In this document: positions 41,071 to 49,814 of the stretch, in pieces | Numbering within the stretch: the first letter of the stretch is position 1 | Layout of the letters: the number at the start of each line of letters is the position of its first letter | Notes under the pieces: model-generated | Told to the model about the DNA's origin: nothing | Seen by the model: the letters and a program-made list of their open reading frames with translations, nothing else | Database searches by the model: none | Program-made: the position numbers and the translations under genes | From: Dehalococcoidia bacterium | GTDB taxonomy: Bacteria > Chloroflexota > Dehalococcoidia > SHYB01 > SHYL01 | DNA: 57,261 bases | Reading direction: 5' to 3' | Assembly: GCA_009692825.1 (NCBI GenBank) | Contig: SHYL01000003.1 | Span: forward strand, 1-57,261

Positions 41071-42342
41071 TTAGAGCAGTAAGCGCATTGGGTTCTGGAG
41101 GAAGGCCTTCACATCCTGTAGGAACTGAGCTGCCGCTACGCCGTCTGTGGCCCTGTGGTCCGCAGATATCGTTGACGGCATCATCTGCCGAATGACGATC
41201 TGGTCATTGACCACCACAGGTTGCGGCTTGATGGACCCAAGCGCAAGCACGCCGCTCTGGCCAGGAGTGATGATCGCTGAGAACCAGTCAACATCGAACA
41301 TGCCCATGTTGCTTACATTGAACGTTGGAGCTGAGTACTCTTCCTGGCGGAGCTGATTCTTCTTCGCACGCTCTTGCAGGCCTTTGCTGGCGACAGCAAT
41401 CTCGGCTAGGCTCTTGCTCTCGCACTGCAGTATTGCAGGCGCTACCAGGCCGTCTTCCAGTGAAATAGCGATGCCTATGTTGATGTTCTTGTGGACCACA
41501 AGACCTTGCTCTGTATAGGTGGAGTTCAGCTTGGGGTGCTTCTGAAGGGACTTGGTTACAGCCTTAACGACGAGGTCGTTTACGCTTATTTTGACTTCCA
41601 GTCCGCTCGTTTCATTCAGCTCTTTGCGAAAGCGCATAGCCTCCGTCATATCGATCATGTTCTCAACGTAGAAATGTGGTATGCCGTTCTTCGACTGAAC
41701 CATTATCTTGGCGATGCCGGTGCGCATCCTGCTGAGCGGTATCGTTTCGTCAGCCTTTATGGCAGGCGTGGCCGCCGGCGCAGGAGCTGCTGACACCATT
41801 GCGGGGGCTGGCGCTGCGGTAGGTGCGGACGGGGCCGCTGCCGCCGGCTGTACTCTGCCTTCGGCAACCGCGAGCACGTCTTCTTTTTGGACGCGTCCGC
41901 CGGGGCCTGTGCCCTTGATGGTTCTTAAATCTATGCCCTTCTCTTCAGCGATCTTGCGCGCAATTGGAGACACCTTCATTTCGCCTGAAGGATCTGCCAT
42001 TGCTGGTGCAGGTGGCGCTACTGGAGCGGCTGCTGTTTTAGCAGGAGCAGGAGATGCGGCAGGCTTAGCGCCGCCTGACTTGGCTGGAGCGTCCACTGTT
42101 TCGCCGGGTGCACCTATGAAGCCTATGATTTCGCCGACCGGGACAGTGTCACCTTCACCAACTACGATACGTGAAAGTACGCCAGGTGAAAATGCTTCGA
42201 CCTCTACAACAGCTTTGTCTGTCTCAATCTCAAGGAGAGGCTCGCCTCTGATTATCCGGTCGCCTTCTTTCCTGAGCCACCTGACAATTTTGCCCTCTTT
42301 CATATCGAAGCCCATCTGGGGCATTTTTACTTCAATAGCCAA
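41071..42342 (-). CDS. dihydrolipoamide acyltransferase (E2) of a 2-oxoacid dehydrogenase complex
   Basis: 423 residues. Domains: lipoyl domain (1-80) with the lipoylated K43 in ETDKAVV; Ala/Pro-rich linker; peripheral-subunit-binding domain (about 120-160, SPIARKIAEEKGIDL); a second Ala/Pro linker; catalytic domain with HRATDG near the end (DHRxxDG motif; His and Asp for acyl transfer). The start is TTG 42342 with GGAGG 9 nt upstream. It is the last gene of the E3-E1alpha-E1beta-E2 group. Separate E1alpha/beta and this layout fit pyruvate, acetoin or branched-chain types; pyruvate is likely but not proved. Confidence 0.94.
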   Translation of the reverse strand: MAIEVKMPQMGFDMKEGKIVRWLRKEGDRIIRGEPLLEIETDKAVVEVEAFSPGVLSRIVVGEGDTVPVGEIIGFIGAPGETVDAPAKSGGAKPAASPAPAKTAAAPVAPPAPAMADPSGEMKVSPIARKIAEEKGIDLRTIKGTGPGGRVQKEDVLAVAEGRVQPAAAAPSAPTAAPAPAMVSAAPAPAATPAIKADETIPLSRMRTGIAKIMVQSKNGIPHFYVENMIDMTEAMRFRKELNETSGLEVKISVNDLVVKAVTKSLQKHPKLNSTYTEQGLVVHKNINIGIAISLEDGLVAPAILQCESKSLAEIAVASKGLQERAKKNQLRQEEYSAPTFNVSNMGMFDVDWFSAIITPGQSGVLALGSIKPQPVVVNDQIVIRQMMPSTISADHRATDGVAAAQFLQDVKAFLQNPMRLLL

Positions 42343-42380
42343 GTGGTGTAACCTCCGCGATCAAATATGTCAAAGCTAAG

Positions 42381-43358
42381 CTATCTGCCCATCAAATCAT
42401 GGACTGCTTGAAGCACTTCGGCTTCACTGGGCATAGCCGCGAGCTCAAGGTTGCGAGCGTATGGGAGCGGCACTTCTTTGCCGGCGATCCTCTTTACCGG
42501 GCCGTCCAGGTAATCAAACGCCTCTTCGTAAATACGTGATGCCACTTCAGCCATGAAGCCACCTGACTTCCAGGTTTCTTCTATGAGAACAGCCCTGTTG
42601 GTTTTCATGACGGACTTAACAACTGTGTTGCTGTCCAACGGACGCAGCGTTCGCAGGTCTACCACTTCACAGTCGATTCCTTCCTGCGCCAGCTTCTCGG
42701 CTGCGGAGAGGGCTACATGGACCATCCTGCTGTAGCTGACAAGCGTCACGTCCTTGCCCTGGCGCTTTACGTCAGACAGGCCGATTGGGACGGTGTAGTC
42801 GCCTTCAGGGACTTCACCGCGTGATCTGTACAGCAGTGAATGCTCGACGAATAAAATCGGATTCTCCTCTTTCATAGAGGCGCGGAACAACCCTTTGATA
42901 TCGTAAGGTGTTGAGGGGCAAACAACCTTCAGCCCAGGCACTGTTGCATACCAGTGCTCAAGGCTCTGTGAATGAGTAGCTGCTAGCTGGTTTCCGCCGC
43001 CGCTTACAGTTCTGACTATCAGGGGTATCTTCACCTGTCCGCCGGACATGGACCTGATCTTAGCTGCATTATTTACGATTTGGTCGAGAGCTAACAGGCT
43101 GAAATTTATCGTCATGATTTCAACAATAGGCCTCATGCCGTTTATAGCTGCGCCAACGCCTGCGCCTACAAACCCGGACTCTGCAATCGGCGTGTCTATG
43201 ATGCGCTGAGGGCCAAACTCATCTATGAAGCCTTTCGTGACGGCATACGAACCGCCGTAAGGGCCGATGTCTTCGCCCATTATGAATACTCGATCGTCTT
43301 TTATGAGCGCCTCTCGCAGGGCATCATGTATCGCATCTCTATAAGTGATTACTGGCAT
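42381..43358 (-). CDS. 2-oxoacid dehydrogenase E1 beta subunit
   Basis: 325 residues, transketolase-like pyrimidine-binding plus C-terminal domain. Seen: ITYRDAIHDALREAL at the start, VFIMGEDIGPYGG, DTPIAESGFVGAGVGAA, and C-terminal VEVVDLRTLRPLD-type CEVVDLRTLRPLD. Together with E1alpha it makes the TPP-dependent decarboxylase. It starts 12 nt after the E1alpha stop; the stop TAA lies in the AAGGA ribosome-binding site. Confidence 0.95.
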   Translation of the reverse strand: MPVITYRDAIHDALREALIKDDRVFIMGEDIGPYGGSYAVTKGFIDEFGPQRIIDTPIAESGFVGAGVGAAINGMRPIVEIMTINFSLLALDQIVNNAAKIRSMSGGQVKIPLIVRTVSGGGNQLAATHSQSLEHWYATVPGLKVVCPSTPYDIKGLFRASMKEENPILFVEHSLLYRSRGEVPEGDYTVPIGLSDVKRQGKDVTLVSYSRMVHVALSAAEKLAQEGIDCEVVDLRTLRPLDSNTVVKSVMKTNRAVLIEETWKSGGFMAEVASRIYEEAFDYLDGPVKRIAGKEVPLPYARNLELAAMPSEAEVLQAVHDLMGR

Positions 43359-43370
43359 TTAATTCAATCC

Positions 43371-44348
43371 TTATTCGACGTAGATGTCAGTGTAGAGGTC
43401 TTTAACATCAGGAGCGGGGCTTTCCTCTGCGAATTTAGCCGCATCCTGAACTTCTTTTTCTACCGCTGCTTCAATCTTCTGTATGTCTGCTTCTGTTGTA
43501 AGGTTGGCGGCGATAAGCCTGCGCTTGAAGCTTGCAATCGGGTCTTTCTTCTTCCAGAACTCCTCTTCGGCTCTGGTTCGGTAGCTCATCGGGTCAGCCA
43601 TAGAGTGGCCTTTGAATCGATAGCAGGTTGCTTCCAGCAAATATGGGCCCTTGCCGGAGCGGACATACTCTACAGCCTTCAGCATGCCCTGACGCATACC
43701 CTCTACGTCCATGCCGTCAACAGGCGCGGCCTCCACGTTGTATGCGGCGGCGGTCTTGTACAACTCTTTGAGAGGATATGAGTTCTCAAGCGATACGCCC
43801 ATGCCATAGCCGTTGTTCTCCAGCAGGAACAACACGGGAAGATTCCAGAGTGAGGCCAGCAGCATCGATTCGTGATATTCGCCTTCTTGCATAGCGCCGT
43901 CACCGAAGATGCAGACGACGATCGAGCCGTCTTTTTTGAACTTGGCGCCCATTGCTAAGCCTACTGCCATTGGCAGCATCGCAGCCACGATGGCGTAGCC
44001 GCCAAGGAATCCCTTGGAGGCGTCGAATATGTGCATGGAGCCGCCTTTGCCCTTGCTGGTACCGGTGCTCTTGCCGAGGAGCTCTGCCATCATCTTTTTC
44101 GTATCCACTCCACGGGCTATGGCGTGACCGTGGTCCCGGTAATGTGTCATTATCAAATCGCGAGGCTCAAGCGCTGAGAAGGCGCCGACGGCGACTGCTT
44201 CCTCACCTACGTACAGGTGAACGAATCCGCCTATCTTGCCTTCCGCATACTTCTCTGCACACATGTCCTCAAACCTGCGGATGAGAGCCATCTGCCGGTA
44301 AAACTCCATAAGCTGTTGTTTGTCTACAGCTATTTGTTTGGTCGCCAT
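43371..44348 (-). CDS. 2-oxoacid dehydrogenase E1 alpha subunit (TPP-binding)
   Basis: 325 residues. Seen: RRFEDMCAEKYAEGKIGGF, TPP-Mg motif GDGAMQEGEYHES continuing to LENNGYGMG, the phosphorylation-loop-like YRFKGHSMADPMSYR, and GSMHIFD. It decarboxylates the 2-oxoacid and loads the acyl group on lipoate. Pyruvate is favoured by similarity to PdhA/AcoA, but substrate cannot be fixed here. It lies 31 nt downstream of the E3 gene. Confidence 0.95.
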   Translation of the reverse strand: MATKQIAVDKQQLMEFYRQMALIRRFEDMCAEKYAEGKIGGFVHLYVGEEAVAVGAFSALEPRDLIMTHYRDHGHAIARGVDTKKMMAELLGKSTGTSKGKGGSMHIFDASKGFLGGYAIVAAMLPMAVGLAMGAKFKKDGSIVVCIFGDGAMQEGEYHESMLLASLWNLPVLFLLENNGYGMGVSLENSYPLKELYKTAAAYNVEAAPVDGMDVEGMRQGMLKAVEYVRSGKGPYLLEATCYRFKGHSMADPMSYRTRAEEEFWKKKDPIASFKRRLIAANLTTEADIQKIEAAVEKEVQDAAKFAEESPAPDVKDLYTDIYVE

Positions 44349-44379
44349 TCTTCCTCCTTAACGTGCGTGCAAAGATTCA

Positions 44380-45786
44380 CTAAGCGTCGATCGCTTCGCC
44401 GGTGGCTGCGAGGGCAGCCTGTTTCACTGCTTCAGATAGTGTAGGGTGTGCATGTGTCATCCATCCGAGGTCAGAGGCTGTTCCTTCGAGCATCTTCAGG
44501 ACACCGACCTCTGCAAGAAGCTCTGTTACATCAGGGCCTACCATATGCGCTCCGATAATGTCCCCGTACTTGGCATCCGTTATCAGCTTGACCATTCCTT
44601 CGGTTTCAGCGATACCACTGGCCTTGCCGTTGTTCCTGAACTGAAACTTACCGATCTTAATATTAAGGCCTTTTGCCCTTGCTTGCGCTTCTGTAAGGCC
44701 GATGCTTGCAATCTGAGGCTGGCAGTATGTAGCTCTGGGCATGTCGCTGTAATTTATCGACGGCGTCTCTTTGCCGGCGATTCGCTCAGCTGCCGCGATA
44801 CCCTGTGTTGATGCTACATGCGCCAGCAGGAGCTTGCCTGTGACGTCGCCAATAGCGTAGATGTTCGGGACGTTGGTCTGCATATTGCCGTTTATCTTGA
44901 TATACCCCCGGTCTACTTCGACACCTAGCTTTTCAAGGCCCAGGTTATCGCTATTAGCCTGAACGCCGATTCCTACAAGTACGTTCTCGCAGGACACCTC
45001 GCCCTTCTCGGTACCCTGGGAGTATTTCACCACGACGCCTTCGCCCTTTTTATCGACTGAGTCTACCTTTGCGCCGGTCACTATCTTGATGCCCTGCTTC
45101 TTGAAAGACTTCTCAAGCTCGAGCGATATCTCTTCATCTTCGTTCGGAACCAGGTGCGGCTGCATCTCGATTATCGTTACGTCGCTGCCGTACGCTTTGA
45201 GGTAGTAGGCGAACTCTACGCCGATCGCGCCGCCGCCAACAATGCTTATTGCTGAAGGCAGCTTGCGCATGTCGAGCGCTTCGCGGCTGGTGATGATATT
45301 TTTCTTATCTATCGTCAGACCAGGCAGGCTCCTTGAGCGCGCGCCTGTGGCAATGATGATATTCTTCGAGTTCAGCGTCTCGCCGGTGGGTTTGATTTCT
45401 ATCTTGTTCGCGCCGGATATAACCGCTTCGCCCTTCACGGATTCGATCTTGTTCTTCTTCATCAGGAACTGTACCCCGCTTACGTGGGTCTTGGAAACAG
45501 CCCTGCTTCTCTCCACGGCTTTGGCGATATCGTACTGAAAGTTATCAAATGTAAATCCGAAGTCTTTGCCGCGCTTAAACAGGTTGATAAGCTCAGCGTT
45601 TCTAAGCAGTGCCTTGCTTGGAACGCATCCCCAATTCAAGCAGACGCCGCCCCATCCGCCTATGCCGGTGCCATCGTCTCTTTCGACGATCGCGGTCTTT
45701 AGGCCCAGCTGTGCGCAGCGAATGGCAGTGATATAGCCGCCAGGTCCAGCGCCGATAACGACTACATCGAAGTTAAAATCTTTCAG
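44380..45786 (-). CDS. lpd: dihydrolipoamide dehydrogenase (E3), apparently CTG-started
   Basis: 468 residues if started at the CTG at 45786. The first ATG/GTG/TTG-type codon in frame (TTG 45639) would cut off the whole FAD-binding N-terminus. Translated from CTG the protein begins (M)KDFNFDVVVIGAGPGGY, with TAIRCAQLGLKTAIVERD, exactly where family members begin. GAGGG lies 9 nt upstream and a stop codon (TAA) precedes two codons before. The redox disulfide CLNWGC is intact, as are the second Rossmann motif IVGGGAIGVEFAYYL, YAIGDVTG and the C-terminal HAHPTLSE catalytic His-Glu. A short glycine-rich insertion (GTGIGGWGG) precedes the disulfide. First gene of the complex, after lipA. Confidence 0.88.
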   Translation of the reverse strand: MKDFNFDVVVIGAGPGGYITAIRCAQLGLKTAIVERDDGTGIGGWGGVCLNWGCVPSKALLRNAELINLFKRGKDFGFTFDNFQYDIAKAVERSRAVSKTHVSGVQFLMKKNKIESVKGEAVISGANKIEIKPTGETLNSKNIIIATGARSRSLPGLTIDKKNIITSREALDMRKLPSAISIVGGGAIGVEFAYYLKAYGSDVTIIEMQPHLVPNEDEEISLELEKSFKKQGIKIVTGAKVDSVDKKGEGVVVKYSQGTEKGEVSCENVLVGIGVQANSDNLGLEKLGVEVDRGYIKINGNMQTNVPNIYAIGDVTGKLLLAHVASTQGIAAAERIAGKETPSINYSDMPRATYCQPQIASIGLTEAQARAKGLNIKIGKFQFRNNGKASGIAETEGMVKLITDAKYGDIIGAHMVGPDVTELLAEVGVLKMLEGTASDLGWMTHAHPTLSEAVKQAALAATGEAIDA

Positions 45787-45837
45787 TTTTTATAACCCTC
45801 ACAAAAACGTAAATCCTGTTCAAAAATCATTCTATTT

Positions 45838-45843
45838 ATTATA
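45838..45843 (-). promoter_or_regulatory. -10 element for the E3-E1-E2 operon
   Basis: Perfect TATAAT on the minus strand, 52 nt before the proposed CTG start and downstream of the lipA stop; no clear -35. It would give a leader of about 45 nt. Confidence 0.5.
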
Positions 45844-45894
45844 AGAGAGGCAACAATATCTTCCAGCCCTGAAACATGATTGCAACAATCGTTG

Positions 45895-46842
45895 CTAAAT
45901 CGTCAGCTTCTCGACCTGCTTATTTGCATGGTATGAGCTTCTTACCAGGGGGCCTGATTCCACGTGACGTATACCCATTTTTGTGCCTTCTTCAGCGAGC
46001 TCGCGAAACTCCTGCGGAGTGTAGAACTTCATCACGGGCGCATGCTTTTCAGAAGGTCTCAGATACTGGCCTATGGTCAAAATATCTACTTCAGAATCGT
46101 GGATATCGGCCATCGTCTCTCGTATTTCGTCAGTCGTCTCACCCAGACCGACCATGATGCCGGTCTTTGTGAGTATCGTTCGGTCTATCTGCTTGGCCTT
46201 CAAGAGCAGCTCAAGGGACCGTTCATAGACTGCCTTGGGCCTGATCCTGCGATATAACCTCTGCACTGTCTCGGTATTGTGGTTCAGGACTTCCGGCCTG
46301 GCGTCCATCACTACTTTGAGAGCGTCCCAGTTGCCCATGAAGTCAGGTATAAGGACTTCTACTGCACACCCAGGTACCTTTGCGTGTATCTGGCGTATGC
46401 ATTCAGCGAATATCTCAGAGCCGCCGTCAGGAGCATCGTCGCGATTCACAGATGTGATGACGCAATGCTTCAGGTTTAATGCCTTAACCGCGTTTGACAA
46501 TCTCAAAGGCTCCAGCTTATCGATAGCGCCGGGCTTACCTTTCTGGACAGCGCAGAAGGCACAACTTCTTGTGCAGATATCGCCAAGTATTAGGAACGTT
46601 GCGGTGCCCGCGTCCCAGCACTCGCCTAGGTTGGGACAGTGCGCCTCTTCACAAATCGTATGAAGGTTCATGCCGCGCATGAGGTTGCGCAGTCTTACAT
46701 AGTTCTCGCCGCCTGGAAGTTTTGCCTTCAGCCACTCTGGTAGCCTTCGCTCTACAGGTGCATTCGGGGATGCGGAAACTGGAGCAGGCTGTGAGCCAGC
46801 CATTGGTAATAACGAATTGTTTTCCTGGGGGGAACTTAACAT
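45895..46842 (-). CDS. lipA: lipoyl synthase LipA
   Basis: Radical-SAM enzyme that inserts sulfur into octanoyl groups on E2 to make lipoate. Seen: auxiliary cluster cysteines C64, C69 and C75 (CEEAHCPNLGEC), radical-SAM cluster C90, C94 and C97 (CTRSCAFC), and the C-terminal RSSYHA with the conserved serine ligand. 315 residues. It sits directly upstream of the lipoate-dependent complex; lipB is 5 kb away. Confidence 0.96.
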   Translation of the reverse strand: MLSSPQENNSLLPMAGSQPAPVSASPNAPVERRLPEWLKAKLPGGENYVRLRNLMRGMNLHTICEEAHCPNLGECWDAGTATFLILGDICTRSCAFCAVQKGKPGAIDKLEPLRLSNAVKALNLKHCVITSVNRDDAPDGGSEIFAECIRQIHAKVPGCAVEVLIPDFMGNWDALKVVMDARPEVLNHNTETVQRLYRRIRPKAVYERSLELLLKAKQIDRTILTKTGIMVGLGETTDEIRETMADIHDSEVDILTIGQYLRPSEKHAPVMKFYTPQEFRELAEEGTKMGIRHVESGPLVRSSYHANKQVEKLTI

Positions 46843-46894
46843 TTCACATTATTGTATGGCGGAGCACGCAGTAACTCAAATTTTTGAAACGCTG

Positions 46895-48283
46895 TTAGCG
46901 TAGACGCAGGTGCTTGAACAAAAGCGGATGAACCTGCTTGGCCTGCCCCAGCGCCTGCATCATCACTTTACGTAATGTAAAGTGGGCATCTGGTCCGGTT
47001 CGAAGCTTGAACAGGTGGTAGCACTCTCTCAGGTTCATCTTGCAGATGACACGCCTCAGGTGAGCATGTGTTGTCACATACGGAGCAACCGCAGGCATCT
47101 CTTTGTATATCTTGTCGAACGCCTGCTGTGAGATATCCATAGACTTCTTGAACTCACCGAATAGGCCTCCCTGCTCAATGAGGTCTGGGATTAAATATCC
47201 GTGGGCCACGGTTGCAGGCTGAGCGATGTAGCTCATCATCCTGTGGCGTTTCAGCTCTCTGTACGCCCCATAGTCGAGCAAGAACTCGAACGTATAGTCG
47301 ATGCTTTCCAACTCCCGCACAGGCACGTCGTGGGCACCCAGTGTTTTCAGCGCGTCATCGATCATTGATTCAATCGTTTCCTGGGACGCCTCATCGATTC
47401 GCTTTCTTACGACTTCATAAGGTTCATTCGAAAATCTGTAGAGCAGTGCCGTTGCAATCCTTCGCTCTGCGTTGGCGTCGAACTGGACCAGTTTGGCGTA
47501 AGGGTTTAATGGTTTGGCTGGGAGAGAATTACTGATGTTCTTCTGTGATTGCCTCGTGCCTACGATATATTCATTTCTATCCGCGTACTTGACCAGGGTG
47601 GGCGTCATTTTGCGCCCCTGCTCTTTAAGCTCCTGGCCTATCTCACGAAGCTCTTCAAGTTCTGACGACAGCAGCTTGGTTATCGCATGCTCCAGCGCGC
47701 GTGAGTTTATTGTCATGCCAACGTTTGTAAGAGTGGACGCCGGGAGTATGAATCGGCAGTGGTCGGTGGCTATACGTCTGAGCCGCAGGTTATAAGCGCC
47801 ATCTTTTTCATCCGGCTTCTGTGGATTCTGGCTTTTTAAGAATTGGATTGTGTCCGATAGAGCCTTTTCGTACGCTGCGAATAAGGAGGCGCAAGCGTCT
47901 TTATACGTTGCTTCCAATCCGGGGTGCTGCGCCAGCTCTTTTGGCGTGTAATAGGTGCCATTTTCGAGCACTTGGTACCTGGAAGACTTCTCGGTGTAAG
48001 CGGCCAGCCTATTGTCTTCAACGTCGTCAGCGGCGAGGCGCGAGATATTCTCGACTGCCATGTGCAATACAGCATGTTCGGCAACTGATGAGTGGCCGTA
48101 GTTCAGGACCCAGCGTTCGTTGAAGTCTGCGGCTTTGGCGTCGGTCACCATGCGGCTTATCTCGTCGAACGCTTCAGGGCGACGAGACGTCATAGCGAAC
48201 GTAACCGCTATTTGCTCCTGCGATAGGCTGCGCGAGTCTAGGGCGTAGATTCGGCGCTCATTGATGTTGATTTTAGTTGCCAT
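46895..48283 (-). CDS. double-domain ThyX-like protein (flavin-dependent thymidylate synthase family)
   Basis: 462 residues, about twice a normal ThyX. Domain 1 (about 10-240) has GHSSVAEH (63-70), keeps the C-terminal half of the ThyX motif, E98-K-S-S-R-Y103, but has DNR (90-92) where RHR should be, and LPASTLTNVGMTINSRALEH. Domain 2 (about 265-460) keeps RHRMMS (346-351), followed by YIAQPATVAHGY instead of the E-x-S-x-R-Y part, and THAHLRRVICKMNLRECYHL. A complete motif (RHRx7S) is therefore split between the halves. Function is either dUMP methylation with an active site built from both halves, or a non-canonical member. I recognise the family, not the exact function. Confidence 0.8.
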   Translation of the reverse strand: MATKININERRIYALDSRSLSQEQIAVTFAMTSRRPEAFDEISRMVTDAKAADFNERWVLNYGHSSVAEHAVLHMAVENISRLAADDVEDNRLAAYTEKSSRYQVLENGTYYTPKELAQHPGLEATYKDACASLFAAYEKALSDTIQFLKSQNPQKPDEKDGAYNLRLRRIATDHCRFILPASTLTNVGMTINSRALEHAITKLLSSELEELREIGQELKEQGRKMTPTLVKYADRNEYIVGTRQSQKNISNSLPAKPLNPYAKLVQFDANAERRIATALLYRFSNEPYEVVRKRIDEASQETIESMIDDALKTLGAHDVPVRELESIDYTFEFLLDYGAYRELKRHRMMSYIAQPATVAHGYLIPDLIEQGGLFGEFKKSMDISQQAFDKIYKEMPAVAPYVTTHAHLRRVICKMNLRECYHLFKLRTGPDAHFTLRKVMMQALGQAKQVHPLLFKHLRLR

Positions 48284-48342
48284 ATCGGTTTAGTATCCTC
48301 GAACTGGATTGTAGATTAACTCACCCCGTCAGTAAACGCCTT

Positions 48343-49059
48343 TTATACGCCTCTTTTGTTCCCCCAGAGCATTATGTGCAGCCTGGACGAGAATCGATAA
48401 CCTTTTTCTTCACATAACTTTGTAAGCCAAGCGCTTCGCATGTTAAGCGCCGCCTTTGTCGCTGCCTGGGGCATTAAGATTATCTGCTCTTTGCTTATGC
48501 AGTATTTATCTGCAAGTACTTCCACTTCTTTGACGTCTGATTCTTCTGAAATAACAAACTTGAAGAAGCTGCGTTTGCTGCTTGCAAAGGTCTTTAGCGC
48601 TGGAGTGATTTCACGTTTCTGCGGTGAGTTCCCAGAATTGGCCAGCTTTGGCGAAACGTTCCACTGGTCTATGAGCGATAGCATTTCAGGGGATGGGGTT
48701 ATTGTTCCGTTCGTCTCGATTTCAAAAACGTAACCGCTGCTTTTCAGCCACTTGCAGAGAGGGAAGAGTTTGTCCTGATGGAGAAGTGGCTCCCCGCCGG
48801 TTATTATCAGGCGCTTCATTCCGAAAGCGGAGACCGCATTGCATATGTCTTCTACGCTCATTTTGGTTGTCTCTTTCGCCTGATCGAAGTGCGCCCAGTC
48901 CCACGTGTACTTTGTGTCGCACCAGGCACACCGCAGGTTGCACTGGGCAAGCCTCAGGAATACAGACGGTGTGCCGGCGGAAGCACCCTCTCCTTGTATA
49001 GATTGGAATATTTCAGGCTGGCCGTCTGATTTGCGGCTGACTTCCAGTAACTCGCTCAT
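48343..49059 (-). CDS. queE: 7-carboxy-7-deazaguanine synthase QueE
   Basis: Radical-SAM enzyme making 7-carboxy-7-deazaguanine from 6-carboxytetrahydropterin. Seen: the short-spacing radical-SAM motif CNLRCAWC (C-x3-C-x2-C), EIFQSIQGEGASAGTPSVFLR before it, and TGGEPLLH. 238 residues from ATG 49059, which overlaps the queC stop (ATGA). A longer in-frame start further upstream lies inside queC and has no family support. Confidence 0.93.
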   Translation of the reverse strand: MSELLEVSRKSDGQPEIFQSIQGEGASAGTPSVFLRLAQCNLRCAWCDTKYTWDWAHFDQAKETTKMSVEDICNAVSAFGMKRLIITGGEPLLHQDKLFPLCKWLKSSGYVFEIETNGTITPSPEMLSLIDQWNVSPKLANSGNSPQKREITPALKTFASSKRSFFKFVISEESDVKEVEVLADKYCISKEQIILMPQAATKAALNMRSAWLTKLCEEKGYRFSSRLHIMLWGNKRGV

Positions 49060-49814
49060 TTTGTTTTCTTTGAGGATGAAATGGCAGGGTCTTTTACGCC
49101 TGCTTCTTTGAAGCCTTTGGCACGCAATACACAGCTGTCGCACACGCCGCAGGGCTTGGCGCTGCCCTGATAACAGCTCCACGTAAGCTCTATCGGCGCT
49201 TTGTACTTAATCCCAGCCATTACAATCTCTGCTTTGCTCATCCTTATTAGCGGTGTTTCGATTCCTAACTTGACCTTGTATTGAGTAAATAGTTTGCTGC
49301 CCTGGTTTATCGCGGCAGAGATTTTCTCGTAGTATTCTGGCCTGCAGTCTGGGTAACCGCTGTAGTCGAGGGCGTTTGGACCAAGCCATAAGGTAGTTCT
49401 CAATCCTGATGGCTTTACCCCGTCCTTCTCGATCGCATCGAGCGCATGGCTCTCCAGAAATGCGGCGCCCATGGTAATGAAGAAGGTGTTTCTGAGCGGC
49501 ACGTAGGTTATGGGGATATCTGACTCCCGGTTTTTGAGGACGCCAGGCTTTGCGGCTTCCTCGGGGATGTTGAACTGTTCTGTGCTCGTCAGTGCGGAAT
49601 ACCATGCAAGTGTTTTAAAAAAATTCGCTTTCACAACCTGGTGTTGTATCCCAAGGAAACGCGCGACTTTTGCTGCGGCTACGGTTTCTTTCAGGTGGGT
49701 CTGCCCGTAGTTGATGGTAAGTGCAAAGAGGCTGTCCACTTTCCGTTTCGCCATCGCGGCCACGCTTGTGGAGTCCAGCCCTCCCGATAAAAGCACAACG
49801 CCGATGTTCTTCAT
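49056..49814 (-). CDS. queC: 7-cyano-7-deazaguanine synthase QueC
   Basis: ATP-dependent conversion of 7-carboxy-7-deazaguanine to preQ0. Seen: PP-loop VVLLSGGLDSTS (from residue 6) and the C-terminal zinc site C-x-Q-G-x6-C-G-x-C-x2-C (CYQGSAKPCGVCDSC). 252 residues. The minus-strand -10 candidate lies 8 nt before the ATG and there is no ribosome-binding site, so a leaderless mRNA is likely. queD and tgt are not in the window. Confidence 0.95.
   Translation of the reverse strand: MKNIGVVLLSGGLDSTSVAAMAKRKVDSLFALTINYGQTHLKETVAAAKVARFLGIQHQVVKANFFKTLAWYSALTSTEQFNIPEEAAKPGVLKNRESDIPITYVPLRNTFFITMGAAFLESHALDAIEKDGVKPSGLRTTLWLGPNALDYSGYPDCRPEYYEKISAAINQGSKLFTQYKVKLGIETPLIRMSKAEIVMAGIKYKAPIELTWSCYQGSAKPCGVCDSCVLRAKGFKEAGVKDPAISSSKKTK

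Follow-up and report, generated by a model that had tools for sequence, protein, structure and literature searches.

How could a thymidylate synthase of the ThyX type form its active site if neither of the two ThyX domains in its chain carries the complete set of catalytic residues? This question is raised by a gene at positions 46895–48283 (minus strand) of the window, the whole stretch of 57,261 nucleotides that was analysed. Humans lack ThyX, which is under study as a drug target and has its active sites where subunits meet. According to a 2004 paper in PNAS, the sites are reportedly formed by three monomers. Canonical ThyX has a chain of about 220 residues, with four equivalent sites in each homotetramer (PMC11940539).

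The tandem gene and its divided active-site residues

The gene is a single open reading frame for 462 residues with an ATG start, and the plus strand across the same region contains many stop codons. Two stretches of the protein are matched by the Pfam profile Thy1 (PF02511), with a full-protein score of 171.2 bits (cut-off 24.8), and the NCBIfam thyX profile (TIGR02170) is matched with 92.6 bits (cut-off 87.9). In the Thy1 domain search of the genome, the E value is 8.8e-33 for residues ~22–229 and 2.5e-18 for the C-terminal half. Thy1 is the only domain found in the Pfam scan of the protein, with no Thymidylat_synt domain (PF00303). The first half (D1, residues 1–245) is encoded by positions 47549–48283 and the second half (D2, residues 262–462) by positions 46898–47500, both on the minus strand, as are all the features described below.

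The residues were mapped to ThyX of T. maritima, the reference sequence of which was checked against the PDB. D1 has D90-N91-R92 in the place of R78-H79-R80 of T. maritima, with E89 directly before it and E98-K-S100-S-R102-Y103 after it. This stretch (D90-N-R-L-A-A-Y-T-E98-K-S100-S-R102-Y103; 47975–48016) therefore retains the dUMP loop while the RHR motif is gone. D2 has R346-H347-R348-M-M-S351, in which R346-H347-R348 (47240–47248) is equivalent to R78-H79-R80, and ExSxRY is absent; the place of the lost loop is at residues 353–363 (47195–47227). The arginine equivalent to R147, on the dUMP phosphate side, is found only in D1 (R177; 47753–47755), and that equivalent to R174 only in D2 (R428; 47000–47002). 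The segment GHSSVAEH of D1 (residues 63–70; 48074–48097) is aligned with residues G52–H59 of T. maritima ThyX, including H53 and E58.

Neither domain alone has RHRxxS together with ExSxRY, the combination that marks canonical ThyX, and the two-domain chain differs from the single-domain subunits that give the canonical enzyme its four sites. The chain as a whole contains all the dUMP/FAD ligand residues, with E98, S100, R102 and R177 located in D1 and R346, H347, R348 and R428 in D2; the Q75 position is occupied by a glutamate. A sequence-only reading of this DNA had described a 462-residue chain with two ThyX-like domains, the first with DNR for RHR but with E98-x-S-x-R-Y103, and the second with R346-H-R-x-x-S351 but without E-x-S-x-R-Y. 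This description is borne out, residue numbers included, and the minus strand can be added to it.

Each half is predicted to have the ThyX fold. The AlphaFold2 model calculated with 19 homologues has a pLDDT of 89.6 and a pTM of 0.84; it superseded an earlier run with 5 sequences (pLDDT 65, and below 50 for the key loop). All 50 PDB matches listed for the model are ThyX or PolB entries; they align over about 215 columns, and their TM-scores are 0.62–0.78 depending on the target. In the solved structures of ThyX and PolB, one dUMP/FAD pocket is built by two subunits (PMC5003785, PMC3498832). In the PolB complexes, one monomer binds the nucleotide through Phe79, Arg82, His83, Arg86, Arg193 and Gln206, and the neighboring monomer adds Glu94′, Ser96′, Ala97′, Arg98′ and Arg166′ (PMC5003785). 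By alignment, D2 retains the first of these sets and D1 the second.

Conservation of the split and the thymidylate synthases of the hosts

The split was followed in a column table of 80 tandem proteins, which form 15 clusters below 50% identity. With T. maritima numbering, S88, R90 and R147 are present in D1 of all 80 proteins, position 86 is Glu in 75 and Gln in 5, and R78 is lost in 78 and retained in 2. In D2, R78, H79 and R174 are each found in 80/80 and R80 in 76/80 (RHNR in the remaining 4). E86, S88, R90 and R147 are not conserved there: the region of the lost loop has no conserved Glu, Ser or Arg in the 80 homologues, and the arginine of R147 is found in 0/80 at the aligned D2 column. 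In comparison, the 29 single-domain ThyX proteins from the same phylum all have S88, R90, R147, R174 and R78 in one chain (29/29 each). An alignment of 19 bacterial and phage sequences (23–59% identity to the window protein) has only 19 invariant columns, among them E98, S100, R102, R177, N193, R346, H347, R348 and R428.

Over a larger set, the loop [E/Q]xSxRY in half 1 and RHR or RHNR in half 2 are present in 122 of 122 tandem proteins, down to about 25% identity, with the loop pattern loosened slightly after one protein (L132) was inspected. A chance origin of the motif pattern is excluded by its conservation in relatives. An assembly artefact or a chance reading frame is likewise ruled out, as the same architecture is present in more than 120 independent loci. 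The sequence-only reading had held that each half kept a complementary part of the site, and had proposed a search for full-length homologues and co-conservation of the motifs in each half; both the outcome of that search and the use of the two residue sets in the solved ThyX and PolB structures support the claim. One apparent full motif in a second half (DFSSRY after RHR, in L099) was judged to have arisen by chance in a loop of variable sequence.

Profile searches of the host genome (76% complete) found no ThyA (PF00303) and no second ThyX; a check for thyA or a single-domain thyX had also been proposed earlier. There is no ThyA in two relatives from the same order (97–98% complete), where the tandem gene is the only A1 match, and no thyA or second thyX in the four genomes of L003–L006. 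Full-length ThyA is found in 0 of 134 tandem genomes, whereas 17 of 266 other Chloroflexota genomes have it (Fisher p = 0.001, with relatedness not corrected); five tandem genomes have a partial ThyA-like PF00303 match. As judged from the profiles, the tandem ThyX is the only recognisable thymidylate synthase of the host cell, and it would account for thymidine synthesis in about one third of the sampled Chloroflexota genomes. Copies in phages and plasmids adjoin genes for dCTP deaminase (dcd), for dUTPase and dCMP deaminase, or for DHFR.

In the window, the gene is part of a string of co-directional minus-strand genes (41071–49814), in the order queC, a queE-like radical SAM gene, tandem thyX, lipA, dihydrolipoamide dehydrogenase, E1 alpha, E1 beta and E2, with gaps of 53 and 60 bp flanking thyX. 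A separate group of Chloroflexota genomes, f33/g39 and related ones (G012, G024, G061, G246 and G295), has no ThyX match and only a partial ThyA-like match (PF00303 ~88–256) in a frame of about 500 residues.

Proposed assembly and alternative readings

It is highly probable that the tandem protein is a fused pseudo-heterodimer, which arose by duplication and fusion of ThyX and in which two chains form a four-domain core with about one site per chain. The basis for this is the sequence, the co-conservation, the tree (see below), the exclusion of ThyA and the predicted fold of each half, from which we infer the assembly, the number of sites and the catalysis on dUMP. Most likely, the two chains would assemble into the usual four-domain core of ThyX. 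D2 would provide the FAD/dUMP side of the pocket (R346-H347-R348 and R428), and D1 the dUMP-recognition loop (E98, S100, R102 and Y103) together with R177. The histidine of the third subunit would probably be H64 of D1. This domain may supply the third-subunit residues because H53 is found there in 62 of the 80 proteins (Asp in 17) and the T55 position is Ser or Thr in all of them. Every two-fold D1/D2 interface would then have one complete site. The reciprocal site, between the 'RHR' side of D1 and the 'ExSxR' side of D2, would lack both sets and have decayed, and there would therefore be about one site per chain, not two. Loss of both sets at the reciprocal site would be exactly the pattern expected if one of two equivalent sites had been dropped after the fusion.

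The decayed site may also have gained a function, either as an allosteric pocket (for dTTP, folate or NADPH, for example) or, in phages, for another nucleotide, with dTMP being made in the live site. Such a regulated two-site machine is rather unlikely.

We regard it as improbable that the same split pocket binds a substrate other than, or in addition to, dUMP, such as UMP as in PolB or a precursor for base modification in phages, with dTMP coming from salvage; the sequence-only reading had offered an altered substrate as its alternative. The UMP methylase PolB is already part of the ThyX fold (PMC5003785), several copies of the tandem gene are in large phages, the RHR side of D2 varies (RHNR in the Bacillus phage-plasmids), and H53 is replaced by Asp in some halves. 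However, every dUMP ligand residue is retained, the neighboring genes are dUMP-producing and folate genes, and in the sampled Chloroflexota hosts the tandem gene is the sole candidate thymidylate synthase and is never found beside a full-length ThyA.

The persistence of four sites, each half building a full site with substitute residues so that the motif loss is cosmetic, would be compatible with some of the columns. R80 is retained in D1 of 56 of the 80 proteins, and the place of R174 in D1 is ambiguous, with a conserved Lys or Arg one residue before the collinear position; D2 retains residues like N163 and R165 in most proteins. On the other hand, R78 and H79 in D1 and E86, S88, R90 and R147 in D2 have many replacements with no consensus substitute, and the solved enzymes use both sets at one site (PMC5003785), which makes this reading very improbable. 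That the protein is a decayed or regulatory homologue without thymidylate synthase activity, like the atypical ThyX of Corynebacterium glutamicum (not required for thymidylate synthesis according to the titles of PDB entries 3ge9 and 3fnn), is scarcely credible: either half, taken by itself, gives the impression of decay through its motif loss, and the ThyX-MsrB fusions of Thaumarchaeota show that there are ThyX domains without this activity (PMC6211008), but the complementary catalytic residues are strictly conserved in two phyla and in phages, and no other thymidylate synthase was found in the hosts.

The fused protein is similar to canonical ThyX (T. maritima TM0449 and M. tuberculosis ThyX; PF02511, TIGR02170) in the fold of each half, in the full ligand set over both halves and in gene context. 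The canonical enzymes have all the residues in one chain, whereas in the 462 residues of the window protein they are divided between two unlike domains. PolB, the UMP/dUMP C5-methylase of polyoxin biosynthesis, shares the ThyX fold, and its ligand shell is of the same kind and likewise built by two subunits, but it is a single-domain homotetramer that acts mainly on UMP (PMC5003785). In thaumarchaeal ThyX-MsrB, a ThyX-like domain that has lost the S88 loop is also part of a fused chain, but it is joined to a methionine sulfoxide reductase, and the chain therefore contains no second ThyX half to complement the first (PMC6211008).

A domain duplication in Chloroflexi ThyX was noted, uncharacterised, by Valas and Bourne in 2009 (PMC3224940). 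In the passages of that paper on the duplication, it serves only as an evolutionary marker, with no mention of complementary active-site loss, of phage or Armatimonadota members, or of a mechanism. A search of open-licence papers found only this report and that on ThyX-MsrB (PMC6211008) to be relevant to tandem, double or fused ThyX, and turned up no account of the complementary split or of how deep it goes, of members in phages and Armatimonadota, or of the intermediate described below. The duplication itself was therefore already known; as far as found, the split site is apparently undescribed. Motif-based annotation of one domain alone would call either half dead.

Distribution, origin and divergent forms

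Of 400 sampled Chloroflexota genomes, at least 134 encode tandem ThyX, as do at least 14 of the 101 from Armatimonadota; about 14 of the latter have the window-like form, and further genomes among the 101 have two more divergent tandem forms. A scan of a genome collection gave three full-length Chloroflexota relatives (56–58% identity) and one from Armatimonadota (33–35%, also full length); the same scan with the L115 protein as the query gave no matches. Other copies are found in Bacillus, Paenibacillus, Parabacteroides, Euzebya and Miltoncostaea megaplasmids, in Tunturiibacter phage Tunturi_5 and in large viral contigs. By sequence, tandem ThyX appears to be a type of thymidylate synthase common to Chloroflexota and large phages.

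In trees calculated with the motif columns removed, the D1 halves form one clade (100/99) and the D2 halves another (100/100), which is consistent with a single ancient fusion. Two independent fusions in different phyla are unsupported, as the first halves and the second halves each cluster with these columns excluded. The f61-like group, which is very long-branched, joins D1 at only 82/82 and may have a separate origin. One Chloroflexota lineage (f42, represented by L083) still has RHRLAAYTQHSGRY in D1, with a complete RHR...QxSxRY motif, and its D2 loop is already lost. L083 is the deepest D1 branch in the first tree, on a long branch, and is a plausible intermediate of the split. The family would then represent a natural experiment in subunit complementation, in which a single fused chain has kept one site and let its twin decay, with at least one lineage (L083) caught halfway. 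It would also be a natural, obligately asymmetric ThyX that, unlike the homotetramer, would allow what each subunit contributes to be mutated separately.

The same split is found in two very divergent subfamilies of Armatimonadota and Chloroflexota (Q-type and F-type). One divergent tandem subfamily in Armatimonadota (L144–L152) has GGQESSTRYIKL ... DLNRHRTGTK, and little in its second half still identifies it as ThyX. Another (L100–L103 and L153–L157) has HxHPxYNSEQVSQRY ... DQRHR, with two copies of this form in one Armatimonadota genome (G421). In the phage-plasmids of Bacillus and Paenibacillus (L107, L108, L110, L111 and L118–L128), RHNR replaces RHR in half 2, an insertion within an otherwise fixed motif.

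Inteins are usually located in functional motifs. Two phage tandem ThyX genes (L127, 525–3194; L128, 585–3275) have an in-frame insert of about 370 residues in D1, at GHS^SVAEH, with intein-like junctions, and the insert in L127, where this was tested, has a LAGLIDADG match.
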